64,000 nucleotides of DNA from Deinococcales bacterium. GTDB lineage: Bacteria > Deinococcota > Deinococci > Deinococcales > JAAFIG01. Position numbers and translations under genes: made by a program. The stretch spans positions 62,001 through 126,000 of the forward strand of contig JAAFIG010000004.1 in the NCBI GenBank assembly GCA_013298595.1, in the 5' to 3' direction. Every line of letters starts with the position of its first letter. The first letter of the stretch is position 1. Below are positions 1 through 64,000 of the stretch, piece after piece. Below the pieces are notes generated by a model. That model was not told where the DNA came from. It did no database searches and saw nothing but the letters and a program-made list of their open reading frames with translations.

Positions 1-101
1 GGGTTTATTGGTGTCAGTAACACTGTTTGCCTGAGAAGACTGGCTTGCCACAGCAATGCTTCAAGATTGGCTGAAATCAGAATTTGCGGTTGGAAAATCA
101 T
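1..101 (-). CDS. Possible N-terminal end of a truncated minus-strand gene
   Basis: A reading frame opens with ATG at 101 and stays open leftwards to the window edge, giving about 33 codons starting MIFQPQILIS. No clear ribosome-binding site precedes it and the product is not recognisable. It may be the start of a gene lying outside the window, or chance. Low confidence. Confidence 0.15.
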   Translation of the reverse strand, partial: MIFQPQILISANLEALLWQASLLRQTVLLTPIN

Positions 102-111
102 CACATAATCA

Positions 112-131
112 TAACAAAATCGTAACAAAAT
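112..131 (+). promoter_or_regulatory. Direct repeat TAACAAAAT with 11-bp period
   Basis: TAACAAAAT occurs at 112-120 and again at 123-131, exactly one helical turn apart, in the AT-rich region before the lipoprotein gene at 325. Paired direct repeats with an 11-bp period are typical of OmpR/PhoB-type regulator sites. That reading is an inference from spacing only. I see nothing else identifiable between 132 and 310. Confidence 0.25.
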
Positions 132-324
132 AAAAAACGCTATTGCGAAGCTCGAGCTTTGGCTGCTCAAAAGCTCATCAAACCCAAACTGCACCAAAAT
201 CTCATATATAAGACTTATTAAAGTTTTGTGTGATTTACAGCGTACTCATGATAAATTCTTTGCACCAATACCTCATTCTCGAGGCTTAGCGTTCTCGAGT
301 ACCGAAGTATTTTTGGAGGTTTTC

Positions 325-1188
325 ATGAAAAAATTAGGATTAGTTGTAGCTGCGTTCTTACCGTTCGTCCTCAATTCGTGTTTGAATCAAACACCACCAA
401 TTAATACGGTCAGTCCCGCTGGTGTTTATCAGGATTCCAATGTCTTAACTGTTGGTATTTGCGGTGCAGTTAACGGCTCGAGTTTAAAATTGCGTTTTGT
501 GATTCCCGAACCAACCGCTACTGGAGCAATTAATTTTCAAGTTGTCTCGGATTCATTTACGCCACCTGGTGGGTTAAGTAGTGGTAATGGTGTGGTCACA
601 CAAACGGTGATTGGTTCGTATGCCAATACCTCGAGTGCTTTGACTGGTTCGTTTAAAGTAGATTCCAATACCACCACAATATCTGGGGCATTTAATGAAG
701 CTCGAACTCAGTTTTCTGGAACGTTAACAGCTTCGTGTACTAATTCGCCAAGCAGTTCTCCTGTTAATTACACTTTTGTGGCTGTTAAACAAACAGGTTC
801 GGTCAGTCCTGTTGGATTGTACAAAGATAACAATGTCAGTAACACAAGTTTTTGTGCGACTGCGGCTGGTATAACCACCAAAATTTCGCTTTCTTTGCCC
901 GAACCTTCCACTTCTGGCGCACTGAGCATTCCTGTCACAGTGCAAAACATTACTGATACAACGAACAGCACCTCGAGTGGCACACTGACAGGTTCGTACA
1001 ACGCTGGCACGGGTAACTTCACGGGTTTTGGTACGATTACACTCGAGGGTGGCACAACCAGCAATACAGCCACTGTTAATGGCAACCTCAATTTACTAGC
1101 AAATCAAATCTTTGGTTCGCTCACCCTGACTTGTGGCTCGAGTCCAACGCCATCTGGAACACTCAAATTCTTAGCTGTCAAACAATAA
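325..1188 (+). CDS. Two-repeat exported lipoprotein of unknown function
   Basis: The start at 325 is chosen because GGAGGT lies 6 nt upstream and the protein then opens with a lipoprotein signal peptide (MKKLGLVVAAFLPFVLNSC, lipobox LNSC). The mature protein has two related repeats of about 130 residues. Each begins SPAGVY or SPVGLY, contains a PEP(S/T)-(S/T)GA motif and ends in a Cys followed by FxAVKQ. A conserved Cys near the start of each repeat could form a disulfide with the late Cys. The composition is rich in Ser, Thr and Asn, as in beta-sandwich surface proteins. The family is not recognised. It converges on glgA with only 6 bp between the stop codons. Probably surface-anchored; the role is unknown. 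Confidence 0.75.
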   Translation: MKKLGLVVAAFLPFVLNSCLNQTPPINTVSPAGVYQDSNVLTVGICGAVNGSSLKLRFVIPEPTATGAINFQVVSDSFTPPGGLSSGNGVVTQTVIGSYANTSSALTGSFKVDSNTTTISGAFNEARTQFSGTLTASCTNSPSSSPVNYTFVAVKQTGSVSPVGLYKDNNVSNTSFCATAAGITTKISLSLPEPSTSGALSIPVTVQNITDTTNSTSSGTLTGSYNAGTGNFTGFGTITLEGGTTSNTATVNGNLNLLANQIFGSLTLTCGSSPTPSGTLKFLAVKQ

Positions 1189-1194
1189 GCTTTT

Positions 1195-2535
1195 TTACGC
1201 GCCGTACAACTGCAAGTATTGTTGTGCGGCGTTATCCCATGAAAAATTGGTCTGCATTGCCTCGAGCACCTTAGCTTCCCAAGCTGGTGTACGCCATTGA
1301 GACCTTGCATAACTGGCTGTATTTGCTAATGCACGGCTCGAGTATTCCCAGAACGGGTATCCCCTACTTTCAGGCACGGTATCCAGCAACCCACCAACTG
1401 CTCTGGCGATTGGTAATGTGCCATAACGCATACTAATCATTTGTGATAAACCACAAGGCTCGAACAAACTTGGCATCAGAAACGCATCTGCTCCAGCGTA
1501 AATCCGATGAGCAAAAGGTTCGTTAAAACCACTCGAGAAGTGAATATTAGGTCTGGTTTCCATAAACCAACGCAAACCTTGTTCTGCACCTGTATCACCA
1601 CTACCAAGCACCACGATATTCCAATCGCGTGCCATTTCCTCGAGTGCTCCAAACATAATACTCAGACCTTTTTGCTCGGATAAACGGCTCACCATTGCCA
1701 GTGTTGGGCGGTTTGGATCAAGATTTAATTCTTGGCACAAAGCAACTCGGGCTTTTTCCTTCCCTTTAAAATCCGAGAATTGCTGCGAGATGTGTTTATC
1801 CGAACTCGGATTCCAATAATTGGTATCTATGCCATTCAAAATACCTGTGACCCCTCGAGATCGCAGAACGCCGTCTAAGCCAAAGCCACCCTCGGCTGTG
1901 GTAATTTCCCAAGCGTATCTTGGTGAGACAGTGCTGATTACATCTGAGTAAGCAATACCTGCTTTTAAGCAATTGGCATCGCCGTTATACTCAAGACCAT
2001 CCGTCCAATCCGATAATCCTGTCCAGGACCGAACATCTTCGAGATTCCAACGCCCATGAAAAGCCAAGTTATGAATTGATAAGACACTATGACGGCGTTG
2101 AGCATCTGGCACGTCACCATATTTGAGTAAAGGCGCAATCAAACCTGTTTGCCAATCGTTCAGATGATAGGCATCTGGGAAGAAATGCAATCCATGCAGC
2201 ACATGTGGCACAGCCAAACAAAACTGAGCAAAACGATAAACATCATCCGAGTAACCGTAATAGTCATCCCGATCAAATAAACTACCACCCACAAACACCC
2301 AACGCACCCCATGCTCGAGTTTATCGGACACACCCATTGGTGTAGAAAGACGCGGCGCAGCAATATCCCAAAGATAATAGGGCACAATATTTTTTAGGGT
2401 TTTATACCAAGGTGATACCACCACAACCTCATGCCCCATCGCTGCCAAAGCAATTGGCAAACTCGAGGCAACATCGGCAAGACCACCGGATTTAGAGAAT
2501 GGATGAACTTCACTCGAGATAAACGCAATTCGCAT
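1195..2535 (-). CDS. glgA: Glycogen synthase (GT5, ADP-glucose)
   Basis: Transfers glucose from ADP-glucose to the non-reducing end of an alpha-1,4-glucan in the cytoplasm. The start at 2535 gives MRIAFISSEVHPFSKSGGLADV, the GT5 N-terminus with its donor-binding K-x-G-G-L motif. A GGAGG lies 5 nt upstream, so the longer frame to 2559 is unlikely. Further family marks are LNDWQTGL around residue 140, SRLSEQKGL at the start of the GT-B C-terminal domain, and EPCGLSQMISMRYGTLPI near the C-terminus. At about 446 residues it is slightly short for the family. No glgC, glgB or glgP lies nearby, so it appears to be a single-gene unit, probably read from its own promoter. Confidence 0.93.
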   Translation of the reverse strand: MRIAFISSEVHPFSKSGGLADVASSLPIALAAMGHEVVVVSPWYKTLKNIVPYYLWDIAAPRLSTPMGVSDKLEHGVRWVFVGGSLFDRDDYYGYSDDVYRFAQFCLAVPHVLHGLHFFPDAYHLNDWQTGLIAPLLKYGDVPDAQRRHSVLSIHNLAFHGRWNLEDVRSWTGLSDWTDGLEYNGDANCLKAGIAYSDVISTVSPRYAWEITTAEGGFGLDGVLRSRGVTGILNGIDTNYWNPSSDKHISQQFSDFKGKEKARVALCQELNLDPNRPTLAMVSRLSEQKGLSIMFGALEEMARDWNIVVLGSGDTGAEQGLRWFMETRPNIHFSSGFNEPFAHRIYAGADAFLMPSLFEPCGLSQMISMRYGTLPIARAVGGLLDTVPESRGYPFWEYSSRALANTASYARSQWRTPAWEAKVLEAMQTNFSWDNAAQQYLQLYGA

Positions 2536-2563
2536 ACTTGCCTCCAAAATCTGACACAATAAC

Positions 2564-7849: not shown

Positions 7850-9376
7850 TCAAGAAATCACAGAAGGTAGGGTAGAATCTGAAATCGTCTTTTCGGATTT
7901 CTTAAATCCTGCAGCTGCCATCCAGAAGGCTAGGTGTACAGGTGCATAGAAAAATAAGTAATCCACAGAATTAATCACAAAAATTGCCGCCAACAAAGCC
8001 AGTGCACCCGCATCTCGAGCGCGCCATGCACGTAATACCACCCAAAGCCACAACCATAACATAGCACATAAACCAACTAAACCACTTTCAACAGCCATGT
8101 TTAACCATAAGTTATGTGCATGCGTCAAAGATTCCTTAACTACCCCGAATCTTGATGCTCGAGTATCAAGATTAATTTGTAAAGCAGAAACTAAATCCCC
8201 ACCCGTACCAATTAGAAAAGTGCGTGGATTCTCGAGCCAAACTTTAATCGCTAAACGCCAAATCTCGATGCGACTTCGAGCAGAGTCATTGTCCACTACG
8301 TTCAGTGCGCGTACACTATATGGGGTTTGTGCAAAAGTTTGGGCTTGGTTTTTTGGCATCGTTACTACTTGTCCTATAAAAATTCCAAGCAGACCAAGTA
8401 CAAAAAGCCATGGCATAAGTCTATATAAACGGGAACGCATAATTAAAAGTACAGCAAGTCCAATAATAAAAGCAATGAATGCCGCTCGTGATCCAGAAAG
8501 AAATATGCAGAGCAGCGCGGGAACAAACGGAACTATAAACCATAGATAACTAGAGGCTAAAACGACTGCGATCAATCCAATCATGACCACTTGTGAACCA
8601 AATGCATTCTCATTAAAAGAAAACCCTTTGGCTCGAGAAAAAGTATCTAGCCGCTCCTGCCAAGATGGTGGCACTAAAGCAGTAAGTCGCATATTTCTAA
8701 TTTCAATATCTGCATCCCCAGTTTTCCATGTCCCAGCACCACCAAATCCAAATGCGCTAATCGCACGTTCGGGAAGTTCTACTTCCAATTGGCAAAACGT
8801 CCAATCCGACTTAATTGAACAACGTTTTTCGATTTTTTTACTCTCTTTACCCCAATAAGAAAACCATATATTGACATCTTGAGGCTTGTCCATCCTCATC
8901 TCTACTTGATAGCTCACTACTCCTGAGCCTTGATAGTCCAATAATTGTAAAGCCCAAGCATCGCTTTTATCTACAGCTGTAAATCGTTTATAGTTATCTA
9001 TATAAGCTAGTTTTGTCACTGTTGGGGTGAGTTGCCAAATAGGTTCTATCAGAAAACCAAATGTTTTGGAGGCAAAAAGTAAAGCCAAACAGCTTAAACC
9101 GAAAAAAAGTCCAAAAAACAATCCTCTTTTCTCCGAAAAACCCTTCAATGCATTGAGCCAAAAAAAAGCATAAATAGGAAAAAGTATAACAGACCAATTG
9201 GCTGTTCTTACAGTTAAAATAACCCAAAAAAAAATAAACAAGACTGCCAAGTGCAAAGGTGGTTTAAATGTTAGTTTATTTTTTAAAAAATAGAAAATAC
9301 CTAATCCAAGCAGTAATACACTTATTATTTCAGGTGAAAAAGTATATATAAAACCAACGATTAGAATCAGAATCAC
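7850..9376 (-). CDS. O-antigen ligase/polymerase-like membrane protein with an embedded soluble domain
   Basis: A 508-residue multi-span membrane protein. The C-terminal half carries the Wzy_C/O-antigen ligase pattern: a loop with GTGGDLVSALQINLD and THAHNLWLNMAVESGLVGL, followed by helices. Residues about 148-228, between the early helices, form a soluble insert with alternating hydrophobic strands and two Cys (KRCSIKSDWTFCQLEVEL), ending DIEIRNMRL. This resembles a carbohydrate-binding jelly roll. The start is GTG overlapping the TGA of the sugar transferase gene (GTGA), which implies coupling. Its job is probably chain polymerisation or transfer of the finished glycan to an acceptor. A second Wzy-like gene is at 16569, so a ligase role is likely for one of them. 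Confidence 0.75.
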   Translation of the reverse strand: MILILIVGFIYTFSPEIISVLLLGLGIFYFLKNKLTFKPPLHLAVLFIFFWVILTVRTANWSVILFPIYAFFWLNALKGFSEKRGLFFGLFFGLSCLALLFASKTFGFLIEPIWQLTPTVTKLAYIDNYKRFTAVDKSDAWALQLLDYQGSGVVSYQVEMRMDKPQDVNIWFSYWGKESKKIEKRCSIKSDWTFCQLEVELPERAISAFGFGGAGTWKTGDADIEIRNMRLTALVPPSWQERLDTFSRAKGFSFNENAFGSQVVMIGLIAVVLASSYLWFIVPFVPALLCIFLSGSRAAFIAFIIGLAVLLIMRSRLYRLMPWLFVLGLLGIFIGQVVTMPKNQAQTFAQTPYSVRALNVVDNDSARSRIEIWRLAIKVWLENPRTFLIGTGGDLVSALQINLDTRASRFGVVKESLTHAHNLWLNMAVESGLVGLCAMLWLWLWVVLRAWRARDAGALALLAAIFVINSVDYLFFYAPVHLAFWMAAAGFKKSEKTISDSTLPSVIS

Positions 9377-9966
9377 TTATTTCCTTTATTGCTTAAAACG
9401 GCATGTAATGTTTCGTAAAGTATACGCATATCAAGTGAAAATGAGAAATGATGGTAATATTCAGTATCAAGTTTAACTTTTTCTTCATCACTCAAACTAT
9501 CGCGTCCTCGAACTTGGGCTAACCCTGTAATTCCAGGTAAAATATTTTCAACACCTTGAACTTGGCGCATTTGAAGCAACGATACTTGAGAGGGTAAAGC
9601 AGGTCGTGGTCCAATGAAGCTCATTTGCCCCAACAAAATATTTATTATTTGAGGTAATTCATCAAGACTGGTTTTCCTAAGCCAGTAACCAACCCGAGTG
9701 ATAGGATTAAGACCCAGTTTTTGCATATCTTCAGTAGAAACATTAGGTGTTCCCACTTTCATTGTCCTGAATTTATAGCATTTAAAGATTTTACCGCGAA
9801 AACCAACTCGATTTTGTATAAAGAGAACTCCACCTGAAGAATCTATCATAATTAAAAACGAAAAAATAATAAAAAGAAAGCCAAAAAAAGGTATTAAAAA
9901 AAGGGTAAAAAGGTAGTCTAAAAAACCTTTAAAGTAACGATATCTGTTTTTCTGTAGTAATTTCAT
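9373..9966 (-). CDS. Undecaprenyl-phosphate sugar phosphotransferase (PglC/short WcaJ type)
   Basis: Initiates the repeat unit by moving a sugar-1-phosphate from a nucleotide sugar to undecaprenyl phosphate at the inner membrane face. 197 residues, the length of the minimal monotopic phosphoglycosyl transferases. One N-terminal re-entrant hydrophobic segment is followed by KCYKFRTMKVG, LRKTSLDELPQIINILLGQM (the Asp-Glu catalytic dyad), SFIGPRPALPSQ, PGITGLAQVRGRDSLS and KLDTEYYHHFSFSLD. All motifs of the bacterial sugar transferase family are intact. Its first substrate could be the product of the CapD-like enzyme or a UDP-HexNAc. Confidence 0.9.
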   Translation of the reverse strand: MKLLQKNRYRYFKGFLDYLFTLFLIPFFGFLFIIFSFLIMIDSSGGVLFIQNRVGFRGKIFKCYKFRTMKVGTPNVSTEDMQKLGLNPITRVGYWLRKTSLDELPQIINILLGQMSFIGPRPALPSQVSLLQMRQVQGVENILPGITGLAQVRGRDSLSDEEKVKLDTEYYHHFSFSLDMRILYETLHAVLSNKGNK

Positions 9967-9967
9967 A

Positions 9968-10846
9968 TTAAATTAATCCTTGATTCCTCATAAGTTCCAC
10001 TTCAATCGCTATACCCGCATTAAATTCTCTGGGTATATAATTGAGTTCAATTTGAGCCTTAGAAATATCAAAAGCTTTATTCTCTTGTAATCTTAATACT
10101 TGTTCAACTGTAATTGGAAATCGAGGAATTAAAGAACCAACTTCAGCGCCTAGTTTTGCTAAACCAAGTGGAATATTTAGCAAATGAACATTCTTTTCAA
10201 GTATTTCAACAATCGTAAGAATCAAATTGCGATAAGAAATCTCGCGTAAGCCACAAATATTATATGCTTGATTTTCAGATTTGCTTGATATGATTGCAGA
10301 AACTATACCAGAAGCCAGATCATCAACAAAAACAGGCTGCATTAAGCTTTTTCCTTCACCAAACAATGGGAAAATCGGATATGAATTTAAAAATCTAATG
10401 AGACGGCTCATATTTCGGTCACGCAAATGCCCATAAATCATACTAGGGCGCAAAATAGTATATGTAATACCACTATTTTTTATTTTCTCTTCATTGATTT
10501 TATAAATTTCTGAGAATTGATTATATGAAGAAAAAATGCCAGTTGTGGTTACGAAAAAAGCACGCTCAATGCCAATTTTTTTAATCGCTTCCAGCGAAAT
10601 ATGGTAATGTTTAGGGTGTGTTATATCAATATAAGTAATATCTTTATTTAGAACTTTTTTATAGGTATCTGGGTTTAATACATCACCCTCAAAAATGACT
10701 ACACCTGATTCTTTAAGAAAACTAATACCTTCTCGAGAAGTTGCTCTTACTAGACAACCAATCTGAGCAGGATCTATCGTTTTAATCATTTCTTTAATAA
10801 CAGCATTACCCGTACCAGACGTACATCCTGTAATAAAATATTTCAT
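9968..10846 (-). CDS. Extended SDR NAD-dependent epimerase/dehydratase
   Basis: 292 residues with an N-terminal Rossmann motif (TGCTSGTG), a YNQFSEIYKINEEKIK stretch that supplies the Tyr and Lys region, and LRPSMIYG typical of nucleotide-sugar SDRs. A strong GGAGG precedes the ATG. It sits between the WbuB-like transferase and the PglC-like enzyme. Such genes next to fnlABC/wbuB often reduce a 4-keto sugar, for example to form FucNAc or QuiNAc, but the substrate here is not determined. The gene is AT-rich and has a single CTCGAG. Confidence 0.75.
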   Translation of the reverse strand: MKYFITGCTSGTGNAVIKEMIKTIDPAQIGCLVRATSREGISFLKESGVVIFEGDVLNPDTYKKVLNKDITYIDITHPKHYHISLEAIKKIGIERAFFVTTTGIFSSYNQFSEIYKINEEKIKNSGITYTILRPSMIYGHLRDRNMSRLIRFLNSYPIFPLFGEGKSLMQPVFVDDLASGIVSAIISSKSENQAYNICGLREISYRNLILTIVEILEKNVHLLNIPLGLAKLGAEVGSLIPRFPITVEQVLRLQENKAFDISKAQIELNYIPREFNAGIAIEVELMRNQGLI

Positions 10847-10941
10847 AAAACCACCTACCTCCTTATTTTAGATGAAGACAAACAACAAAAACAGGGCGAG
10901 GTGTTTATTGAATGTGCTTCTGTTATCATTGCAAATTTTTC

Positions 10942-12153
10942 TTATTCAGCAAGGAGTTCAAGAAAACGATCCAGTACTTTTTCACGAGCAAAGTGTTGCT
11001 CATAGTAGTAACGACCGTTAACACCAAGTTGTTCGAGTTGCGTAGAATCCATTTGGTACAAGCTTAAAATAGCATCTTTAAGTGCAATATGATCTTCTGG
11101 TCGACAAACCAAACCTGCATTTGCCTCCTCAATAATGGTGGCACCACTACCTTCTAACGCAGCGATAATTGGGCGACCACATGCCAAGTAGGATTGAATC
11201 TTCGATGGGATTGTAAGTTCAAAAATTGGGTTTCGCTTAAGGGACACTACAGTAACGTGCGCTAGCGCAAATAGTTGAGGCATTTCTTCAGGTAAGCGTC
11301 TACCTTTAAAAAACACATTCGGCAAATCTTTAGCTATCTTTTCCAAAAATATCCGATTTGATCCATCACCATATATCACTATTTTGATATTACTAAACGA
11401 AACAAGTTCTCGAGCAGCTTGAATCAGTATTTCCAGATTTTGGGCTGCACCAAGATTACCCGCAAAAATAACATTAAAAGACTGATCTAAACCCTCGATT
11501 TGTGCAATTTCTCGATTTTTAATTACAGGTATATATATATCTTCAGACCAATTAGGTAAGTATATAATATCATTCTTTGCGATACCATATTTTTCGATTT
11601 TCTCAGACATATTCTTAGATTGAATTAAAATTTTATTTGATGATTTATATATAAACTTTACGATAATGTCAACGAGACGAAGAATCTTGATATTCTTCAC
11701 TTGCCCACTTGCTTCAAGACTTTCAGGCCATAGATCTTGTACATAATGAAAAATAGGAGCTTTGCTTCGTTGGAAAAAGCGAAGCAAAATGCTCGGTAAT
11801 GCAATTGTAACTGGTGATAGTTGCCATGTGACAATTTTCTGGTAGTCTCGAGAGCGTATAACAAATAATCCTATCAAAAAAGCACTTATTGGAAACGATA
11901 GATAATTTAAGATTCGTCTCCATTTTGAATAACTCGTGTCTGGGAAAATAGGAACTCTAATGATACGAATACCCTCCTTATACTCAATCTGACATAGGCT
12001 TTGCTTATATCCATCGTATATTTTTCCTTTCGGATAATTTGGGAATCCCGTTAATACAGTCACTTCGCAGCCCCGTTGCTGCAAGCCATTGACAAAATCG
12101 CCAACACGAAATGGCTCGGGCGGAAAATATTGCGAAACCACTAAAACTTTCAT
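10942..12153 (-). CDS. WbuB-like glycosyltransferase (GT4)
   Basis: 403 residues, GT-B fold. MKVLVVSQYFPPEPFRVGDF at the N-terminus followed by VTVLTGFPNYPKGKIYDGY is the signature of WbuB-type transferases, which usually add L-FucNAc. The C-terminal half contains NVIFAGNLGAAQNLE and a late SYLACGRPIIAAL with EANAGLVC donor-binding residues. It follows the three fnl genes in the same direction, which agrees with use of UDP-L-FucNAc. It is cytoplasmic, working on the lipid-linked intermediate. Confidence 0.87.
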   Translation of the reverse strand: MKVLVVSQYFPPEPFRVGDFVNGLQQRGCEVTVLTGFPNYPKGKIYDGYKQSLCQIEYKEGIRIIRVPIFPDTSYSKWRRILNYLSFPISAFLIGLFVIRSRDYQKIVTWQLSPVTIALPSILLRFFQRSKAPIFHYVQDLWPESLEASGQVKNIKILRLVDIIVKFIYKSSNKILIQSKNMSEKIEKYGIAKNDIIYLPNWSEDIYIPVIKNREIAQIEGLDQSFNVIFAGNLGAAQNLEILIQAARELVSFSNIKIVIYGDGSNRIFLEKIAKDLPNVFFKGRRLPEEMPQLFALAHVTVVSLKRNPIFELTIPSKIQSYLACGRPIIAALEGSGATIIEEANAGLVCRPEDHIALKDAILSLYQMDSTQLEQLGVNGRYYYEQHFAREKVLDRFLELLAE

Positions 12154-12163
12154 ACTTCAAAAC

Positions 12164-13294
12164 CTAACCCTTGCGCCAAACAACTCGATTGATATAGTCA
12201 GTATAGCTTAAAATCAAGCGCACAACTTTTTCCGAAACATTAGGCATACTGTAATCTGCAACAGGGCGAAAATTTGGAACTTCTCGAGAATGGCGTTCTA
12301 AAAGAGCCAATCCTTGCAAAATTCTGGTTTGTTCAAGTCCAACCATAATGACGCTGGCCTCTTCCATTACTTCTGGTCGCTCGTGGGTTTCTCGAATATT
12401 CAAAGCAGGAAAATCAAGAATAGCAGATTCTTCGGAAATTGTGCCTGAATCAGAAAGCACAGCTTTAGAAGATTTTTGAAGCTTGATATAGTCAAAAAAG
12501 CCCAATGGCTTGAGAAGCTCTACACGACTGTCAAATACCAAGCCAGATGCTGTTATTCGCTGTTGGGTTCGTGGATGAGTAGAAACGATAATTCTCTTTC
12601 CAAATTGCTCAGCAATAACATTCAGACTTTGATGCAAATGTTTGAGATTTGTTTCTGAATCAACGTTCTCTTCGCGGTGAGCACTAACCACAAAATAATC
12701 TTGATCTTTCAAATTCAGTTGGTTAAGAACCTGACTCGCTTCAATCCCAAAACGATAATACTCGAGGACCTCAAACATTGGGCTTCCTGTCTTAATAACG
12801 CGATCTGGAAGCAGACCCTCTCGTAATAAATATTCTCTAGCTATACTTGAATATGTCAGATTAATATCAGCAATATGATCTACAATTCGTCGGTTGGTTT
12901 CTTCAGGAACCCGTTGGTCAAAGCAGCGATTCCCCGCTTCCATATGAAAAATTGGAATTTTACGACGCTTAGCTGAAATAGCCGCCAAGCTGCTATTGGT
13001 ATCTCCGAGAATTAAAATGGCTTCGGGTTTTTCTTGAACCAGCAAAGCATCTATTTTGATAATTACTTGCCCGATTGTTTCCGCAGCTGTTTGACCTGCT
13101 GCATTCAAAAAATAATCTGGTTTCCGAATCTCGAGATCATCAAAAAAGATCTGATTCAGCTCATAATCATAATTTTGACCAGTATGAACCAGAACATGAT
13201 TTGCCGTTTGATCAAGAACAGCAATGGTTCGGGATAGGCGGATAATTTCTGGACGAGTACCAACAATAGTCATGATTTTCATTTTTGAACTCAT
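12164..13294 (-). CDS. fnlC: UDP-N-acetylglucosamine 2-epimerase family, FnlC/WbjD type
   Basis: Non-hydrolysing 2-epimerase fold, 376 residues. The N-terminus contains VGTRPEIIRLSRTIAVLD and HTGQNYDYELNQIFFDDL followed by KPDYFLNAAG, the variant found in FnlC/WbjD, which finishes UDP-L-FucNAc synthesis, and not in WecB. SAHREENVD and the SDSGTISEESAILDFPALNIR stretch are intact. It overlaps fnlB by ATGA (13291-13294), as expected for a co-translated pathway, and precedes the WbuB-like gene by 10 bp. Confidence 0.88.
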   Translation of the reverse strand: MSSKMKIMTIVGTRPEIIRLSRTIAVLDQTANHVLVHTGQNYDYELNQIFFDDLEIRKPDYFLNAAGQTAAETIGQVIIKIDALLVQEKPEAILILGDTNSSLAAISAKRRKIPIFHMEAGNRCFDQRVPEETNRRIVDHIADINLTYSSIAREYLLREGLLPDRVIKTGSPMFEVLEYYRFGIEASQVLNQLNLKDQDYFVVSAHREENVDSETNLKHLHQSLNVIAEQFGKRIIVSTHPRTQQRITASGLVFDSRVELLKPLGFFDYIKLQKSSKAVLSDSGTISEESAILDFPALNIRETHERPEVMEEASVIMVGLEQTRILQGLALLERHSREVPNFRPVADYSMPNVSEKVVRLILSYTDYINRVVWRKG

Positions 13295-14382
13295 ACCAAC
13301 TCCGCAGTTGTGTCAGGTGCATCTGCCTGAAATAATTCATGAGTCCAAAACAATGTCACAAGCTCTGTTGAACCCACATTTGTTATATTATGTGTATGTA
13401 AGGTTGGAATATCAACATATGCAGGTCGACTACCTGAAACCCGAAAGGTTATCGTTTGCGAACTCAGAACTTGACGAACTTTGATTTCAGCTTCACCAGA
13501 AATGACCAGAAAACGCTCTATTTTATGTAAGTGGTAATGATTGCCTCGAGTAATACCCGGCTTAGTTGTAGACAAAAATGTTTGCCCACAGCTATAAGTT
13601 TTAACTGATTCAAATAGTGAACCACGTACATCTGAATGCATAGAAAGATATCTAGGATACATCTGGGGAAATAGATAGGAACGATATGTATTAAACAAAT
13701 CTCTATTTAGGTTATCACGCACATCTGGAAAAATATGCTCTGAGTACAATTTATGGAACTCACTTATTTTCTCAATTAACTGCTGCTTGTTCATTTCCTG
13801 TCCACGCAATTGAAGTTCACCTGCGCGCTTTTCTTGAGCAGCTCTCCATAAAGCCTGTGCGACCACTTGTGCATGGAGTAGCTCAAAAGAGGCATCTTGA
13901 TTTGTAGTCATAAACTCTTTTTTGTTGACGATATGGTCTAAGAGTTTTAGAACCAACGAATCTGGATCAAATTCACCAAAAACCTTAGGTAGTGTAACGT
14001 ACCAAAAAGAGTCCTTTAAGTGCAAAAAACGCTTCTCAAAAAGAGAAAAGCATTCATACCTAAACCGCTCTTGTTGTTTTTGAAACCCAAAAGAAATTGG
14101 ACAATCTACAATAAACAGTTGTATTTTGTCTGATATTCGATCAATAGCAGTCAGTATCGCCTCAACGCGTGATGTATTGATCAGAGTATGCTCTTCACCA
14201 AGCATTTCTACAAAATAAAAAATAACATCACTCTGCCTAACAAATGACTCGAGTGAAAGACTTTCAAATAGCGTATCTTGAGTTACATACTGAATCTGAA
14301 GATCAGGCATCGTCTTTAGATAAACAGCCACATGCCAACCCAAAAAAGCCCTTAGATCTGCAATACCGACTGCAAGACTCAT
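13291..14382 (-). CDS. fnlB: Bifunctional reductase with C-terminal cupin, FnlB/WbjC/CapF type
   Basis: Second step of UDP-L-FucNAc synthesis: C3-epimerisation and C4-reduction of the keto intermediate. The N-terminal part (about 1-245) is an SDR-like domain. The C-terminal part (about 246-363) is a cupin with GITRGNHYHLHKIERFLVISG and DIPTLHTHNITNVG supplying metal-binding His residues. This arrangement matches CapF. It is flanked with 4-nt overlaps by fnlA upstream and fnlC downstream. The Rossmann glycine motif at the extreme N-terminus is weak (MSLAVGIADLRAFLGWH), so a few N-terminal residues may have been lost or the start may lie slightly off. Confidence 0.87.
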   Translation of the reverse strand: MSLAVGIADLRAFLGWHVAVYLKTMPDLQIQYVTQDTLFESLSLESFVRQSDVIFYFVEMLGEEHTLINTSRVEAILTAIDRISDKIQLFIVDCPISFGFQKQQERFRYECFSLFEKRFLHLKDSFWYVTLPKVFGEFDPDSLVLKLLDHIVNKKEFMTTNQDASFELLHAQVVAQALWRAAQEKRAGELQLRGQEMNKQQLIEKISEFHKLYSEHIFPDVRDNLNRDLFNTYRSYLFPQMYPRYLSMHSDVRGSLFESVKTYSCGQTFLSTTKPGITRGNHYHLHKIERFLVISGEAEIKVRQVLSSQTITFRVSGSRPAYVDIPTLHTHNITNVGSTELVTLFWTHELFQADAPDTTAELV

Positions 14383-15410
14383 GTTGACAATCCTAATTCA
14401 TGGCGAACTTCTGGCAATGTGAGCAGTAATTGCTTAACTTCATCAATACCTAGCTGTTGTGTGTTGTGTGAGTGATAGTCTTCAAGTTTATTTTGCTCTA
14501 GGGTTCCCTCAGTAAAGTATTTGCTATAATTGAGATCTCTATTATCCATTGGAATTCGATAATAGTCACCCATATCTTCAGATTTTAAAAGTTCTTCGCT
14601 TGTTGCAAGCGTTTCATAGGTTTTCTCTCCATGGCGAACTCCGATAACTTGGACAGGATTTGTGGCACGAAACAATTGCTTAAGAGCCTCAACTAATGTC
14701 GCAACTGAACAAGCAGGCGCTTTACGAATAAAAATATCTCCTTGGTTAGCATTCTCAAAAGCATGAATCACCAATTCAATCGCAGTAGTTAAAGAAAGTA
14801 AAAAACGTGTCATTTCGGGATTTGTAATGCTCAGAGGCTTACCTTGCTTTATCTGAGAAATAAAGAGTGGAATAACCGAACCTCTTGAATACATTACATT
14901 TCCATACCGCACACTACTGATGATGGTCTGCTCTGGATTCAAATGCCTAGAAGCAGCTGCTGCAATCTTTTCCATGAGGGCTTTTGTCATACCCATGGCA
15001 TTGACTGGATAGACCGCTTTATCTGTACTTAAACAAACCAATCGCTTAATCCCATGGCGAATAGCGCTTTCAATTACATTCTGGCTACCAATCACATTTG
15101 TAAGCACTGCTTGCATTGGAAAAAACTCGCAGGATGGCACTTGTTTTAGTGCTGCTGCATGGAAAACCAAATCAATACCCTGCATAGAGTGGTCAAGGCT
15201 ATGTATATCTCGAACATCACCAATATAAAACTTAACCCTAGGATCAGCCACCTCATTACGCAAGGTTTCTTGCTTCAATTCATCCCTGGAAAAAATCCGA
15301 ATCTCTCTTACATTATCTTTGAGTAGTCGATAAAGCATTTCTTTACCAAATGAACCTGTACCTCCAGTTATAAGCACTGAAGAGTCGAACAAAGAACCAA
15401 ATTCAGACAT
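14379..15410 (-). CDS. fnlA: UDP-GlcNAc 4,6-dehydratase/5-epimerase, FnlA/CapE/WbjB type
   Basis: First enzyme of UDP-L-FucNAc synthesis. 343 residues, SDR fold: VLITGGTGSFGKEMLYRLL near the N-terminus, FSRDELKQE, FYIGDVRD, HAAALKQVPSCEF, then LVCLSTDKAVYPVNAMGMTK with the Met-Lys pair in place of Tyr, and NPEMTRFLLSL. All motifs of the FnlA/FlaA1 family are present. It begins the fnlABC block, overlapping fnlB by ATGA. A CTCCT-complementary site lies just before the ATG. Confidence 0.92.
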   Translation of the reverse strand: MSEFGSLFDSSVLITGGTGSFGKEMLYRLLKDNVREIRIFSRDELKQETLRNEVADPRVKFYIGDVRDIHSLDHSMQGIDLVFHAAALKQVPSCEFFPMQAVLTNVIGSQNVIESAIRHGIKRLVCLSTDKAVYPVNAMGMTKALMEKIAAAASRHLNPEQTIISSVRYGNVMYSRGSVIPLFISQIKQGKPLSITNPEMTRFLLSLTTAIELVIHAFENANQGDIFIRKAPACSVATLVEALKQLFRATNPVQVIGVRHGEKTYETLATSEELLKSEDMGDYYRIPMDNRDLNYSKYFTEGTLEQNKLEDYHSHNTQQLGIDEVKQLLLTLPEVRHELGLST

Positions 15411-15424
15411 GTCTTTCCTCCTAA

Positions 15425-16588
15425 TTAATTATAACGGTCCATGAGCTCATAAAAATCTTTATGTAAATTCGTAAAAAGTTGGTGGTTTATAATGTATTGG
15501 CGAGCCCCTTTGCGCCAAGCATATCTAAGTTCAGTATTCGAGAAAATATTAAAGGAAGCACGAAAAGCATCCAAAAACTCTTCTTTATTCATAGGGTTTA
15601 CATTAAATCCTGCTTGATAAGTACTTAGTTCCTGCCACGGAGTATTAAATCCGATTAGTACAGGAATTCCACTAAAAAGCGCTTCGACAATAGAATGTCC
15701 AAAATTTTCAGATCCAGACATCGAAATAAATAAATCATATTCACAAAGTTTTGAGACAAGTTCTTGGTAGCTTTGGGGTCCAAAAAACTTAACTCGATCA
15801 ACCAAATTGGTGTTTTGGCTAATTTCATAGCATTTATCCCAATAATTTTTGTCCTCAGCAACACCAAAAACATCAATTCTGAATTCAAAATCAACTTCAC
15901 GCAAATACTCCAAAAGCAAATGGAGGTTTTTAATTGGGCTAATCCTTGCTGCCCAAATAACTCTAAAAACACCAGAGTCATTCAGTTTTTTTTCAATAAA
16001 TGGCAAGGTAAGATCAGGAAAATCGCTTGAGATTTTAACTTTAAACTGAGGAAAATTTCTTAAAATATCTAATTTTTCAAAATCACTGGATGCTTGAAAA
16101 GTGGTATGGGACTTACTTAGAAGTCTACATAAAATAAAAATGTATAATCTTTTAAGAAAAGCTTTTAAGTTTTTCGAAGTTCCCAAGGCATTAACCGATA
16201 ACTCACCTCTGGTCGCAAAAATAAGATGAGTTTTTTGATAAAAGAGCCTTAAGAATAAAACTGGTAAAAATGTAAATTGAAGAGAAAAAACACTGTTAAC
16301 GTAGAAATGATCGAAATCGTATTTAGTAGTTATTTTTCTTAACGTATTAAAAAAATTAATAAATCCCTCAGTATAAAATATATTTTTTATAAAAACATCA
16401 ATTTTTTGACAGTCTTTACTATCAAGCAAAGTTCTATCTATGTCTATATTTCTAGAAATAACTGCATATTCTACCTTATCATTCGTAGAAATTATAAGAT
16501 TAAATAAGCTTCTGATTGGACCACCAGCTTTATAAGCTGGTGAAAAGTAATCTGAAAAAACTAGTATTTTAACTCTTTTTTCCATCAT
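15425..16588 (-). CDS. Glycosyltransferase family 4
   Basis: 387 residues, GT-B. The N-terminus reads KILVFSDYFSPAYKAGGPIRSL, the acceptor-side glycine motif of GT4. The C-terminal domain has VIWAARISPIKNLHLLLEYL and GSENFGHSIVEALFSGIPVL, the E-x7-E donor motif region. No CTCGAG occurs in the gene, and it is clearly AT-rich. It overlaps the upstream Wzy-like gene by 20 nt. Sugar specificity is unknown; it probably adds one residue of the repeat unit. Confidence 0.85.
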   Translation of the reverse strand: MMEKRVKILVFSDYFSPAYKAGGPIRSLFNLIISTNDKVEYAVISRNIDIDRTLLDSKDCQKIDVFIKNIFYTEGFINFFNTLRKITTKYDFDHFYVNSVFSLQFTFLPVLFLRLFYQKTHLIFATRGELSVNALGTSKNLKAFLKRLYIFILCRLLSKSHTTFQASSDFEKLDILRNFPQFKVKISSDFPDLTLPFIEKKLNDSGVFRVIWAARISPIKNLHLLLEYLREVDFEFRIDVFGVAEDKNYWDKCYEISQNTNLVDRVKFFGPQSYQELVSKLCEYDLFISMSGSENFGHSIVEALFSGIPVLIGFNTPWQELSTYQAGFNVNPMNKEEFLDAFRASFNIFSNTELRYAWRKGARQYIINHQLFTNLHKDFYELMDRYN

Positions 16589-19014: not shown

Positions 19015-19073
19015 GTAAAATCCTATATTTTTGACTGAATTACCAAGTGAAACGCGCTAATAAAAAGTAATAT

Positions 19074-20324: not shown

Positions 20325-20433
20325 AATGACTAAAAGCTGAGAGAACATCGAAATTATTTTTAGAGTGACTAAAATCTTTCTCGGACTTTACATTTGTTTG
20401 ATCTTATAAAAAAATAATTCGAATTAAATCTAT

Positions 20434-21192: not shown

Positions 21193-21313
21193 AAATCACT
21201 TTCCAAGTTCAGTCAGTCTTACACTTAATTGTTTGTATCTGATTAGGAATGAGGTACAGTCACAATTTCAACAAGATTCAATGTTTTGGAACTTCTTTCA
21301 ATAATTTGCTACA

Positions 21314-56040: not shown

Positions 56041-59000
56041 TTAATCAGCTGCAATAGCATTACTCGAGGTTCGGGCTGGAATTTGAATAATATGTTCGCC
56101 GCTGGTACGAATTAACTCGAGTTCGGTTTTTAAGCGCTCAATTTCAAGGCGAAGCACAGCAATGTAGAAGATGGCAAAACTAATCAGGGTCAGTATCGTT
56201 AGGACAATAAAAATAATTTGTGGATAAGCTTTGCCAAGCGCAGCAAATAACAGTGGTAAAGCAAAACCACCAAGCCCACCAAGTAAGCCCACTAAGCCGC
56301 CAACCACACCAATATCTTTGGCATACCAGTGTGTCACCAGTTTGTAATTACTGGCTTTACCAACGCCCATACCAATACCAACAACAACGGTGATGCAGGT
56401 AAAAATTGGCAAACTGATAATACTTGCAGGTAATGCTAACAAAGCCAGTGCACTCATCATGACAATAAACGAAACAAGTGTGACAGGACGTGCTCCAAAT
56501 TTATCTGAGAGAAAGCCACCCAGTGGACGCAATAAACTAGCTGGAAAAATAAACAAAGCTGTCAGTAAACCTGCAACACTCAGTGGTAAATCGTAAACAT
56601 CCTCGTAATACTTAGGTAACCATAGTGAAAGCGCCACATAAGCACCAAAGAAAATCACGTAATACAAACCAAAACGCCAAACCTGAATTTTTGTTAACGG
56701 ACGCAACCACTCGAGCATGGTTTTACGGGTGGTTGTAGCTTTATCTTTTGGCGCGTAGAACTGCACAAACAAAGCGACCAGCACTAAGGCAATACCAAAC
56801 ATAAATGGCACAAACCGCCATCCATAAAAATACAGACCACTCGAGGCAGGTATCAGACCTATCATGCCTGGAGCCAGAAGTTTTGTGATACTAGCACCCA
56901 CATTGCCAGCGCCAAATGTTCCGAGTGCCAAACCACTTTTTTCTTTTGCTACCCACGCACCAATCCAAGCGTTACCAATAGCAAAACTCACACCAGCAAA
57001 GCCAATAAAAAAGGCTAAGGTCAGAATACTCGAGTAAGTGGTTAGCGTTGGTAAAATAAAGGCTGTACCAGCGGTAAACAGCATCAACGTCACAAACATG
57101 TTGCGTCCGCCAAAACGTTCTGCCATGATACCCGCAGGTAAACGCAAAAGCGACCCTGTGAGAATCGGTACAGCTGTTAAAAGTGCAAATTGCGAATCGG
57201 TTAAACCCATTTCTTTACGCAATGCCAAACCAACAATTGAAAACATCACCCAAACAGCAAACATCAAGGTAAAACCCATTGTGGCAGCAGTAATTACTCG
57301 AGCTTCGGGGGCTTGTGAAAATACAAAAGGACTGGCTTTGGCTCTGGTACGACGGGCTTCTCGAGTGGCAGCTCCTGAAAGTAAAGCGCTATAACCAAGT
57401 GGCAAGTTATTTGGAGCAAAAAATGGTTGATTGACAGGTGTTTCTAAGACATCCGAAATTCGCTCGAGTTGAGCGGGTGTGACCTTAAAATCGGGCATGC
57501 GGCTAGTTGGGTCTAAGGTGGCTTTGGTTAAACGATTGGCATTGGCTAAACCAGCATAATGAAAAGTGCTAAACACTGTGTCTTCACGGATTGAATCTTG
57601 AATCAGCACTGCAAAATCTGCACTACCCGATTCGGTGGTGACGCGCACTTTTTCGCCTTTTAAAACACCATATTGTTTTGCTAGGTTTGGGTGCATCTCG
57701 AGGACTGCATGTGGTGCTTTAGCATTGAGTTTTTCGTTGCGCCGTGTTTGCACACCACTTTGGTACTGATGGGCATTCCGACCCGTAGTGAAGTACACAG
57801 GTCGCTCGAAACTGGCAATCTCGGCGGGTAATCTATAAGCAATTGGCTCGAGATGTGCTTTGCCATCGGCATGAGCAAAACGTACAGCAAAAGGCTCAGG
57901 TATACCTGCATGCCCAAGATCTGGGCATGGGTAAAAAACACCATTTGGTTCAAGTTTTTCGTAGGTGATGCCCGAGTAATCAGCACTCGAGCCTTTAGTA
58001 GCTGCTGCTAATTCTGTGAAAATTTCACGTGGACTACTAAAAGCAAATTTATCACCAACACCAAGCAACTCGGCAATCTGACACAGAATCTGCCAATCGG
58101 CTCGAGCTTCGCCAGGTAAATTCGTGGCTTGGCGACGACGCAAAACTCGTCCCTCGAGATTGGTCATGGTGCCATCTTCTTCAAGCCACATGCTGCCAGG
58201 CAAAACCACATCTGCCAGTTGTGCTGTTTCGGAAAGGAAAAAATCGATGACCACCAAATGCTCGAGGCTACCAAGATGACGGGTTACAGCTAAGCTATTG
58301 GCTGCGCTGACCACAGGGTTAGAACCAAGTACCAGCAAACCCTGAATTTTACGACCACATGCCTCGAGTAATTCCTGAGCGCTCAGCCCTTTACGTGGTA
58401 ATTCTGATTCAGCAATTCCCCAAAAATCGGACATAAAAGTGCGAGCTGCTGGGTCTTCAATCAAACGATAACCTGGTAGTTGATCGGCTTTTTGTCCGTG
58501 TTCACGCCCACCCTGACCATTTCCTTGACCAGTTAAAGGCGCATAAAAACCACCCATTGCCAAGGCTAAATTGAGCAAAGCTTTAATTGTTTCAACACCT
58601 CGAGAAGATTGTTCAGGACCGCGCCCAGATAAAATAAGTAAAGTGCCTTTTTGAGCGCTAGTGCCCATGACTTTGGCTGTTTCACGAATGACCATTGCAT
58701 CCACACCACAACGCGCAGCTGCCCATGCTGGCGTGCAATAACGCACACTCTGCGCCACAGCTGCCCAACCAGAAACTCGAGCTTCGAGAAAGGCAATATC
58801 TAAAAGGTTTTCGGAAATCAGTGCATTGAGTAAACCAAGTGCCAAAGCCAAATCGCCATTTGGTTGCACAGGAATATGCAAAGTTCCAAGTTTGGTACTT
58901 GGTGTGGCACGCGGGTCAACCACAATAATTGGTGCACCATTCTTGCGTGCTCTTGCGACAAATTGCGAAACAGGTGGCAAAGTTTCTGCTAAATTACTGC

Positions 59001-59532
59001 CCCATAAAACAATACAACTTGCCTCGGCGACTTTCTCGAGTGGAAATGGCAAACCCCGATCCATACCGTAAACGGCTCGCATGGCAGCTCCAGCGCTGCT
59101 CATACAGTAACGCCCGTTGTAATCGATATTGGCTGTTTTTAAAGCAACTCGAGCAAATTTACCCAGTAAATATGTTTTCTCATTGGTTAAACTGCCACCA
59201 CCAAACACAGCGAAGGCATTGCGACCATATTCGGATTGAACACGTTTGATGTTACTTGAAACTCGAGCCAATGCCTCTTGCCAAGTGGCAGGTACAAGCT
59301 CACCATTCTGACGCACCAAAGGGGTCAAGAGCCGTTCTGCGTGGCTTGGCTCCTCGAGGGCAGCTAAACCTTTTTTGCAGACACTGCCATGCGCCACAGG
59401 GCAAGCAGGCGTGCTGCGCAATGCCAGTAATTCATTGCCTTTGTGTTCGATTTCAAAAGTACACTGCACTGCGCAATATGGGCAGGTGGTTTTTGTCACC
59501 TGAGCTGTTGGCTCGAGAAATGACATGGTCAT
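56041..59532 (-). CDS. Assimilatory nitrate reductase fused to NarK-type nitrate/nitrite transporter
   Basis: One uninterrupted reading frame of 1163 residues with two complete proteins. Residues 1 to about 720 are a molybdopterin nitrate reductase of the NasA/NarB kind: the [4Fe-4S] cysteines 17, 20, 24 and 52 (TCPYCAVQC, SVCKKG), GRYCMSSAGAAMR, TGQGNGQGGREHGQKADQLPGYR, DFFLSETAQLADVVLPGSMWLEEDGTMTNLEGRV and YFTTGRNAHQYQSG. Residues about 745 to 1140 form a 12-helix MFS domain with FGAGNVGASITKLLAP and GFLSDKFGARPV, as in NarK/NasA transporters. No FAD or [2Fe-2S] domain is present, so reduction probably uses ferredoxin. The reductase is cytoplasmic and would be tethered to its own uptake channel. 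It lies 30 bp after nirA. Confidence 0.9.
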   Translation of the reverse strand: MTMSFLEPTAQVTKTTCPYCAVQCTFEIEHKGNELLALRSTPACPVAHGSVCKKGLAALEEPSHAERLLTPLVRQNGELVPATWQEALARVSSNIKRVQSEYGRNAFAVFGGGSLTNEKTYLLGKFARVALKTANIDYNGRYCMSSAGAAMRAVYGMDRGLPFPLEKVAEASCIVLWGSNLAETLPPVSQFVARARKNGAPIIVVDPRATPSTKLGTLHIPVQPNGDLALALGLLNALISENLLDIAFLEARVSGWAAVAQSVRYCTPAWAAARCGVDAMVIRETAKVMGTSAQKGTLLILSGRGPEQSSRGVETIKALLNLALAMGGFYAPLTGQGNGQGGREHGQKADQLPGYRLIEDPAARTFMSDFWGIAESELPRKGLSAQELLEACGRKIQGLLVLGSNPVVSAANSLAVTRHLGSLEHLVVIDFFLSETAQLADVVLPGSMWLEEDGTMTNLEGRVLRRRQATNLPGEARADWQILCQIAELLGVGDKFAFSSPREIFTELAAATKGSSADYSGITYEKLEPNGVFYPCPDLGHAGIPEPFAVRFAHADGKAHLEPIAYRLPAEIASFERPVYFTTGRNAHQYQSGVQTRRNEKLNAKAPHAVLEMHPNLAKQYGVLKGEKVRVTTESGSADFAVLIQDSIREDTVFSTFHYAGLANANRLTKATLDPTSRMPDFKVTPAQLERISDVLETPVNQPFFAPNNLPLGYSALLSGAATREARRTRAKASPFVFSQAPEARVITAATMGFTLMFAVWVMFSIVGLALRKEMGLTDSQFALLTAVPILTGSLLRLPAGIMAERFGGRNMFVTLMLFTAGTAFILPTLTTYSSILTLAFFIGFAGVSFAIGNAWIGAWVAKEKSGLALGTFGAGNVGASITKLLAPGMIGLIPASSGLYFYGWRFVPFMFGIALVLVALFVQFYAPKDKATTTRKTMLEWLRPLTKIQVWRFGLYYVIFFGAYVALSLWLPKYYEDVYDLPLSVAGLLTALFIFPASLLRPLGGFLSDKFGARPVTLVSFIVMMSALALLALPASIISLPIFTCITVVVGIGMGVGKASNYKLVTHWYAKDIGVVGGLVGLLGGLGGFALPLLFAALGKAYPQIIFIVLTILTLISFAIFYIAVLRLEIERLKTELELIRTSGEHIIQIPARTSSNAIAAD

Positions 59533-62177: not shown

Positions 62178-62233
62178 CACTTGACATCGGGTTCACCCGA
62201 CGTTGCATCCTCAAAGAGCCACAGGAGGCAACC

Positions 62234-62305: not shown

Positions 62306-62410
62306 GACGTTTTGTTTTAGGGTTTTCACACCCCGATTAGTGTGTTCATGACAGTGTTGAGCAATTCCAATGTGTACTTTTCATTTTTATAATACGGTTG
62401 ACCCAAGCGG

Positions 62411-62467
62411 CTCGGGTTTAACGTGTTGCTCGAGTCATTGTTCAAGAGGAAACTCGGGTTCAACGTG
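62411..62467 (+). repeat. Imperfect 15-bp direct repeat
   Basis: CTCGGGTTTAACGTG (62411-62425) and CTCGGGTTCAACGTG (62453-62467) differ at one base and are 42 bp apart. CGGGTT/AACCCG-type motifs also occur at 62190 and 62490. They lie in the non-coding stretch between hemD and the glycosidase gene and might be regulator sites or remnants of a repeat. Confidence 0.5.
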
Positions 62468-62544
62468 AGGCAGACCAAGCTCACCCGATATTAGATCACC
62501 AAGTGTTAACATCCATTCTATATGATGTCAAAATCGGTGTTCAG

Positions 62545-62592
62545 TGGCAGCCGTTGCCCCGCAGCCTGGGGTCAAGTCCAGCATGCATGACC
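62545..62592. repeat. REP-like element (DPRLRGN type)
   Basis: The region contains GCCCC, a 7-nt spacer and GGGGT next to CAAGTCCAGCATGCATGACC. The minus strand would encode HAGLDPRLRGN, the hallmark of a palindromic repeat family widely spread in bacterial genomes. It lies just upstream of the glycosidase gene, in a stretch otherwise without genes. Confidence 0.55.
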
Positions 62593-62650
62593 GCTTTGTC
62601 GCGTGTTCGGAAGCGGTATCCAACCACACGGCAGGTCAAAGGAGATTGAC

Positions 62651-64000
62651 ATGAGTAAGATGACCTCGGGTTGGCTGAATGTGATGGGGCTGTTGATTGT
62701 CGGCAGTGCGCTCTCATTGGCAGGCTGCGAAGCGCAAACACCAATATCCACGCCAACGCCAGTGCCTGACGTGCAAAGCTTCACAAGACAAGATGTAAAA
62801 AGCGTGGATTTTAGTTCTGGGGCAAATTATTTTTCCATCAAGGCGGCTTCTTCAGGCTCGGGGGGTGAAGTTGAGTTACGCCTTGATCGTGCCAATGGTC
62901 CAGTGATCGGTCGCGCTTATTTTCACCATACAGGCAGTCAAACGTATTTCTTGGACTACGAAGCAAAACTCAATCAAGTCGTCACTGGACAACACGATGT
63001 CTATATGAATTTTCAGGACTATTCTGCACCAACGGCTGGTGGAATTCTAAAGATAGGTGACTTTAAGTTTTTAATGACCAATACGAATTCGGCGACTGGT
63101 TCTTCAGGAAACACAGGAGACGCTAGCTTGCATGTTTATGATCCTGTGCCAGAACTAGATCCATCACCGTACTATGAAATCCGTGTTCAGGAAAAAAGCA
63201 AGCTCAACTCGGCTAGCCTCAGTGCGGTCACAAATTGGCAAACCCCTTTCGCGTGGTTCACCGAATGTGTACAAAAAAGCGCACCTGACACCTTTACCGA
63301 TAAGTCATATTACGGTTCTATTGCTGGATGGAGTCACACATTCACCAATTTTGAATTGACTTCTGGCACAACCATTGTTGTAAAAATATCCCGCAAAGCA
63401 ACGAATGACTTTAATGCCCCAGCAGGTCCAATCAGCACCGCTGTTGCATATCCAAAACGCCATGTTTTGTCTACAGAAGTGATTAATGGCGACGTGTACG
63501 TGACCATGAACAAACCAGCCCAAGTGAGCATTGATATTGACGGGCAAATGGATACGCGCAATGCGCCAAGGGTGAAACCAGATGGTTTTCTTTCTGCCGG
63601 TGCGTTTCCATTCGCTGGTCGTAAAGAAGGTTCACATGCCGTTTCAATTTTTGCCAATCCATTCATCACTCCACCCAACAAAAACGATCCAGGCGTGTTG
63701 GTGATTAAGGCTGGGCAAAAGATACCAGCCGATTTGAGCACACGCTCTTGGAGTACCCTTTATTTCGAGCCTGGTGTTCACAAAACTTCGGTGGACGAGG
63801 TTACAGATAAAGACGGCAACAAGAACCTCGTCGAACGGCTATGGAAACCTGAGGATCGGATACCATTGATCAGCGGTCGGAGTTACTACATCCCTGGGGA
63901 TGCCATCGTTTACGGAAATTTCAGCGATTACGACAAAACATCTTCCAACGTGAAAATCTACGGGCATGGTCTCATCTCTGGTTCAAAAATTCTTCACTTT
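62651..64000 (+). CDS. Secreted CBM6-like/beta-helix glycosidase, N-terminal part
   Basis: The frame is open from ATG 62651 (AGGAGA upstream) to the window edge, 450 codons, so the gene is incomplete. The signal is LLIVGSALSLAGC, a lipobox, followed by a Thr-Pro linker. Residues about 50-170 resemble a CBM6 domain: VELRLDRANGPVIGRAYF and TGQHDVYMNF. From about 190 a beta-sandwich with SWSTLYFEPGVHKTS, RSYYIPGDAIVYGNFSD and NVKIYGHGLISGS suggests the start of a right-handed beta-helix, as in GH49 dextranases and related enzymes. It is nearly free of CTCGAG, unlike its neighbours, so recent acquisition is likely. It probably degrades or modifies a polysaccharide outside the cell. Confidence 0.7.
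   Translation, partial: MSKMTSGWLNVMGLLIVGSALSLAGCEAQTPISTPTPVPDVQSFTRQDVKSVDFSSGANYFSIKAASSGSGGEVELRLDRANGPVIGRAYFHHTGSQTYFLDYEAKLNQVVTGQHDVYMNFQDYSAPTAGGILKIGDFKFLMTNTNSATGSSGNTGDASLHVYDPVPELDPSPYYEIRVQEKSKLNSASLSAVTNWQTPFAWFTECVQKSAPDTFTDKSYYGSIAGWSHTFTNFELTSGTTIVVKISRKATNDFNAPAGPISTAVAYPKRHVLSTEVINGDVYVTMNKPAQVSIDIDGQMDTRNAPRVKPDGFLSAGAFPFAGRKEGSHAVSIFANPFITPPNKNDPGVLVIKAGQKIPADLSTRSWSTLYFEPGVHKTSVDEVTDKDGNKNLVERLWKPEDRIPLISGRSYYIPGDAIVYGNFSDYDKTSSNVKIYGHGLISGSKILHF

Follow-up and report, generated by a model that had tools for sequence, protein, structure and literature searches.

CTCGAG, a palindrome in extreme genome-wide excess in Deinococcota, resembles the highly iterated palindromes of cyanobacteria

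The six-base palindrome CTCGAG occurs once per 169 bases across the genome of a Deinococcales bacterium, and some process writes or guards it genome-wide. It is equally dense within and outside genes, is conserved between species, avoids the immediate neighbourhood of other copies, is scarce in an apparently foreign island and is spread, with losses, over related genomes. We consider it very probable that CTCGAG is a word of the same general kind as the highly iterated palindromes (HIPs) of cyanobacteria, under a bias or selection that operates at the level of DNA. How the word is maintained is a matter of more tentative inference, for which we weigh several explanations below.

CTCGAG is in excess throughout the genome

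The stretch analysed here, called the window, comprises 64,000 nucleotides at 43.5% GC (positions 62001-126000 of contig C34), from an assembly (G000) of 68 contigs and 4.58 Mb that is 94% complete. An earlier note, made from the letters of the window alone, had described CTCGAG as hugely over-represented, and the excess is larger than it supposed. The window holds 341 copies, where base composition predicts 11.4 and an order-2 Markov model 24, and the whole assembly holds 27,159, or 5.9 per kb. GAGCTC, which consists of the same letters reversed, occurs only 15 times in the whole genome. The mean spacing over 1.26 Mb of the genome is 169 bp, and the window is typical, because 20 stretches of 20 kb taken from other contigs contain between 2.9 and 7.8 copies per kb. 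Similarly, in a 464-kb sample of the genome the word is about 30-fold over base composition and 14-fold over the order-2 model. A maximal-order Markov model does predict 282 of the 341 copies in the window, but only because CTCGAG itself supplies most of the TCGAG and CTCGA 5-mers on which that model draws. An excess of 10- to 30-fold remains with low-order models, with codon shuffles and in non-coding DNA, so the count is not predicted from shorter words, and the excess is carried by the whole genome. The by-eye counts in the earlier note were exact for both glgA and metH (Table 1), and the flanking bases are as varied as it had said, being close to even with the exception that CCTCGAGG is rare.

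Table 1. Features of the 64,000-nucleotide window
Feature	Position	Strand	Observation
CTCGAG sites	1..64000	.	341 sites; mean spacing 183 bp
glgA	1195..2559	-	TIGR02095, 442 bits; 8 CTCGAG, 5.9 per kb, a typical density
Word-poor island	8633..21408	.	surface-polysaccharide genes, 34% GC; 10 CTCGAG vs 76 expected
Longest CTCGAG-free stretch of the window	14249..18528	.	25 sites expected
NotI-like R-M system, two genes	26649..28495		between metK and metH
N6_N4_Mtase DNA methyltransferase	26649..27680	+	PF01555, 173 bits; TSPPYW motif, N4-cytosine type by motif
NotI-family restriction endonuclease	27668..28495	+	PF12183, 27.2 bits (cut-off 22); PADLOC REase_II
metH	28960..32667	+	TIGR02082; 37 CTCGAG, 10 per kb; 26 in Leu-Glu frame
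Nitrate reductase/NarK fusion frame	56041..59532		one 1163-aa frame: assimilatory nitrate reductase (residues 10-689) and NarK-type nitrate transporter (747-1089); adjoins ferredoxin-nitrite reductase gene

The force behind the word acts on DNA and has left an imprint on proteins

CTCGAG is as dense in coding as in non-coding DNA (5.82 vs 5.80 per kb), and the sites in 1.10 Mb of coding DNA fall in all three codon phases (3581, 1577 and 1262 in phases 0, 1 and 2, respectively); genes were taken as the longest open frames, which makes the phase, density and dipeptide figures approximate. Shuffling synonymous codons within genes, with the proteins kept, leaves 643 +/- 26 of the 6420 observed sites, and shuffling codon order leaves 281. 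Thus the sites do lie in all three frames and between genes, as the earlier note had claimed, and its view that neither codon choice nor a single protein motif is sufficient holds, since synonymous shuffles keep only a tenth of the sites. That codon usage, codon-pair bias or a protein motif makes the excess has next to no chance of being right: 56% of the coding sites sit in the Leu-Glu frame, and CTC and GAG are frequent codons in GC-rich relatives, but the other two phases and non-coding DNA are in equal excess, synonymous shuffles lose 90% of the sites and Glu-Leu has no excess, and the phase, non-coding and shuffle results refute codon usage or a protein motif as the sole cause.

The Leu-Glu pair occurs at 2.35 times the expectation based on residue frequencies, while Glu-Leu occurs at 0.99 times; for G004, a sister genome poor in the word, the corresponding values are 1.03 and 1.11. 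Because coding and non-coding densities are equal, all codon phases are used and Leu-Glu is in excess where Glu-Leu is not, we conclude that the force acts on DNA and not on protein. The word has also altered the proteins, doubling the Leu-Glu pair proteome-wide. For example, the MetH protein of the window contains 29 Leu-Glu pairs, compared with a mean of 8.6 and a maximum of 14 in 79 MetH proteins of other bacteria.

Sites are conserved, resist every substitution and exclude close neighbours

Conservation was assessed in 52 reciprocal-best ortholog pairs between the window's genome and another species (G001), which share 72% nucleotide identity and 42% identity at four-fold sites. CTCGAG is identical in the other species at 51-59% of sites, compared with mostly 3-31% for control words, and its one-mismatch partners amount to 5% or 13%, depending on direction, compared with about 15-62% for the controls. 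A blastn comparison of the two genomes gave 57-61% conservation for CTCGAG; GATGAA, which owes its persistence to its codons, was conserved at 52-57%. Across the 52 orthologs, the density of the word is not lower in conserved genes, and no correlation was seen.

In 464 kb of the window's genome there are 2770 copies of CTCGAG and 1255 one-letter variants, which puts the variants at about 0.7 of chance alongside a 31-fold excess of the intact word. Of these variants, 599 differ at the outer bases, 244 at the middle and 412 at the inner bases; transitions dominate, and C-to-T variants are the commonest. No type of substitution escapes the resistance, and this speaks against a repair system dedicated to one mismatch only. 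Vsr-like repair of T:G mismatches was rejected on these grounds, as the C-to-T near-misses are the commonest and not the rarest.

Neighbouring sites avoid one another. Relative to distances of 100-300 bp, pairs of CTCGAG occur at 0.23 when 6-11 bp apart, 0.45 at 12-20 bp and 0.76 at 21-30 bp, and at the shortest distances G001 has a matching deficit (0.44 and 0.62). This mutual avoidance below about 25 bp is found in all nine codon-phase pairs, and Leu-Glu written in other codons has no short-range deficit. Sites more than about 60 bp apart are spaced almost at random; no 10.5-bp or other long spacing rule was seen, and a period of three reflects codons. Avoidance of hairpins was discarded as a cause, since those distances show no general depletion of inverted GC-rich 6-mers. 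The exclusion zone may be the footprint of a protein, or may reflect a benefit that saturates locally. The tRNA DNA contains no CTCGAG, in a sample that at 764 bp is too small to interpret.

The word is spread across Deinococcota and scarce in an apparently foreign island

The earlier note had proposed a comparison with related genomes, and this places the window within a word-rich clade. All four genomes of its family (f1) carry 5.9-6.5 CTCGAG per kb, and two genomes of genus g11 in the sister family f2 carry 6.2-7.7 per kb, a high density that holds although the sampled GC content ranges from about 44 to 60%. An rpoB tree, in which some GC-rich rows are mis-framed but f1 and f2 are unaffected, recovers the two families as sisters (97/98). 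Also in f2, G008 has 3.6 per kb and G004 0.3 per kb, the latter being nested in the family without the word. The nearest named relative found, a Deinococcales MAG (L112, JANXTZ010000070.1), has 6.55 per kb and no GAGCTC. Further afield, among Meiothermus-type and other relatives, the excess is weaker, but CTCGAG is still the top over-represented 6-mer in samples of six genomes (G006, G025, G044, G046, G052 and G101), with a Leu-Glu excess of 1.25- to 1.66-fold. No CTCGAG excess was seen in plasmid stretches from Deinococcus radiodurans and D. deserti, and no Leu-Glu excess in Thermus pTT27, though plasmids may not represent chromosomes.

Two further observations concern this distribution. First, density rises with genome size (rho 0.54 for 61 of the 111 phylum genomes, uncorrected for GC or phylogeny), a trend also seen within families f3 and f5. 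Second, a virus contig of 110308 bp (L379, IMGVR_UViG_3300018422_000001) contains 318 CTCGAG, or 2.9 per kb, and lacks GAGCTC; eight of its CTCGAG lie at 15-bp spacing at one end. The contig may belong to a phage that infects a word-rich host, and the search tied no host to it.

Within the window, an island of surface-polysaccharide genes is strikingly poor in the word (Table 1; P = 2.5e-21 for the deficit). Its gene content and GC suggest that this cluster is foreign. Recently acquired DNA thus appears to lack CTCGAG, as expected if the word accumulates in place.

Candidate methyltransferase and repair genes

A solitary CTCGAG methyltransferase, which the earlier note had suggested looking for, did not emerge: in a whole-genome search of five families (PF12950, PF07669, PF01555, PF02384 and PF00145), followed by clustering, no methyltransferase was common to all word-rich genomes, which include incomplete MAGs. 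Most word-rich genomes hold several methyltransferases of these families. Enzymes of different descent could share a specificity, so methylation remains compatible with this result.

The best candidate, an orphan-type C5 methyltransferase (L284) closest to the PADLOC orphan model PDLC03716, is present in only 4 of 111 genomes (G000, G001, G012 and G102). Another methyltransferase, from G001 (L021, PADLOC MTase_II), is found at full length only there, with a partial match of 44% in G012 and a match of 29% in G017. The methyltransferase of the window's own NotI-like R-M system (Table 1) was rejected as the author of the word, as the other word-rich genomes do not share it. No XhoI-type system was identified within the searched families, which exclude the XhoI endonuclease family PF04555. 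Mismatch-repair bias, also among the causes listed in the earlier note, gained no support from the mismatch endonuclease NucS, which does not track the word: it is present in word-poor G107 and G110, and was not found in most Meiothermus-type genomes.

Comparison with known systems

In cyanobacteria, HIP1 is GCGATCGC, and the alternates GGCGCC, rCCGGy, GCsGC, GGGATCCC and TCGATCGA are also known; a methyltransferase that fits is present in every genome with highly over-represented words, and methyl-directed repair has been put forward as a model (PMC4390886). The earlier note had named HIP1 as the closest known case, and the general features of HIPs are indeed found here: CTCGAG is a short palindrome in extreme genome-wide excess, within and outside genes and independent of codons, it is lineage-wide with losses, and the sites of other palindromes are often depleted. 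Yet it is not HIP1 proper, as the HIP1 core CGATCG is depleted here (9 vs 167 expected), and it differs in word, in phylum and in having no common methyltransferase among the five families searched. It is also denser, at 5.9-7.7 per kb compared with about 0.5-2.5 per kb for most cyanobacterial HIPs (5930 per Mb for the window's genome vs roughly 500-2500 per Mb), which makes it two to three times denser than HIP1. The measured Leu-Glu imprint on the proteome and the short-range exclusion set it apart as well. Thus, the word and the phylum are new, while the kind is already known. A literature search, with subscription journals poorly covered, found no published description of CTCGAG in Deinococcota, in line with the guess made in the earlier note.

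The same six-base word is known from Nocardia, where an orphan methyltransferase recognises CTCGAG and the motif clusters at dnaA (PMC4752239). Both cases offer a possible methylation target without restriction, but the motif is origin-clustered there and fills the whole genome here. Like the uptake sequences of Neisseriaceae and Pasteurellaceae, CTCGAG is a single word in thousands of copies, and molecular drive may be how such words spread. The uptake words described in those families differ in their greater length, their orientation and their density of about one per kb. Chi and KOPS are likewise oriented words, whereas CTCGAG is its own reverse complement and cannot be oriented. Finally, CTCGAG is recognised by the XhoI and PaeR7I restriction-modification systems, and such targets are normally avoided; here it is enriched, whereas GGCC and CCGG stand at 0.01 and 0.09 of chance.

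How the word may be maintained

At steady state, a 31-fold excess with variants near chance would correspond to fixation being biased towards the intact word by about ln 31 = 3.4 per site. A bias of this size would be enough to push many amino-acid changes, including the extra Leu-Glu pairs, through coding DNA. Our leading but tentative reading, held at a little under even confidence, is that CTCGAG is a highly iterated palindrome kept dense by a DNA-level bias, with marked-site repair as the likeliest version. The six-base palindrome, the resistance to every mutation and the exclusion within about 25 bp point to a dimeric CTCGAG-recognising protein that would act at each site. The site would be marked, probably by methylation, and mismatch repair or recombination would favour the marked strand; lost CTCGAG sites would be restored and near-sites completed. 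This combination of methylation and repair is the mechanism we favour for the maintenance of CTCGAG, with somewhat less confidence again. The fitting methyltransferases of HIP-rich cyanobacteria speak for it; the lack of an enzyme common to all word-rich genomes in the five families searched, and the distribution of NucS, speak against it. We think it rather unlikely, but worth serious consideration, that the word is instead propagated without a cognate methyltransferase, by a new CTCGAG-binding chromosomal protein or a conversion process of Deinococcota.

Selection driven by function would yield the same equilibrium pattern as a bias. For example, each site could be weakly useful to the cell, perhaps as a place where an abundant nucleoid or chromosome-organising protein binds, or as a self mark that protects DNA from a nuclease, with no conversion or repair bias involved. 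The equivalent of 2Ns of about 3.4 would give the same excess and near-miss pattern, and a bound protein, or a benefit that saturates locally, would be in keeping with the exclusion zone of about 25 bp. However, selection would be hard to sustain at 27,000 sites with near-random spacing past 60 bp, no preference for non-coding DNA is seen, the Leu-Glu excess implies a cost to proteins, and G004, within the sister family, does without CTCGAG. On balance, we judge per-site selection to be unlikely, though a real contender.

Drive through DNA uptake, in which competent cells would take up or incorporate fragments containing CTCGAG and the word would spread by transformation, is improbable. Uptake sequences are able to spread by drive, and such drive would resist every substitution in the word. 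But the known uptake words, at 9-12 bp, are much more selective than a palindrome of 6 bp. Fragment uptake also calls for a lower density than the 6 copies per kb seen here, and inverted pairs at close range are avoided.

Least probable of these, and very doubtful, is that the excess is a by-product of restriction, in which other palindromes were purged and a protected CTCGAG was spared. Many other 6-bp palindromes are strongly depleted in word-rich genomes, the GC-rich ones most (GAGCTC 1 vs 138 expected, TCGCGA 1 vs 134), and the densities of CTCGAG and GAGCTC are weakly and inversely related (rho -0.30 over 61 genomes, uncorrected for GC or phylogeny). Sparing, however, predicts a chance level of CTCGAG and not 31 times chance, and G008, at 6-fold over the order-2 Markov model with several palindromes near expectation, comes close to being word-rich without palindrome avoidance. 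As a separate matter, GGCC and CCGG number only 15 and 106 in 464 kb of the window's genome, and together with the palindrome depletion this suggests heavy restriction pressure; the depletion of GGCC is found in G000, G001 and G003 and is absent in G012.

Implications

To our knowledge, HIP1 is still without an agreed explanation, and a further case, from a different phylum and with a higher density, offers a comparative test of the cause of HIPs. Close relatives that span 0.3 to 7.7 sites per kb provide material for such a test, and cultured relatives, such as G044 (judged to be Allomeiothermus silvanus), carry a milder form of the excess. The doubling of a dipeptide indicates that a bias at the level of DNA can shape a proteome, and this imprint matters for analyses of codon usage, protein evolution and gene transfer. 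If CTCGAG does prove to be propagated without a methyltransferase, it would be a genome word with a drive of its own, strong enough to rewrite proteins.
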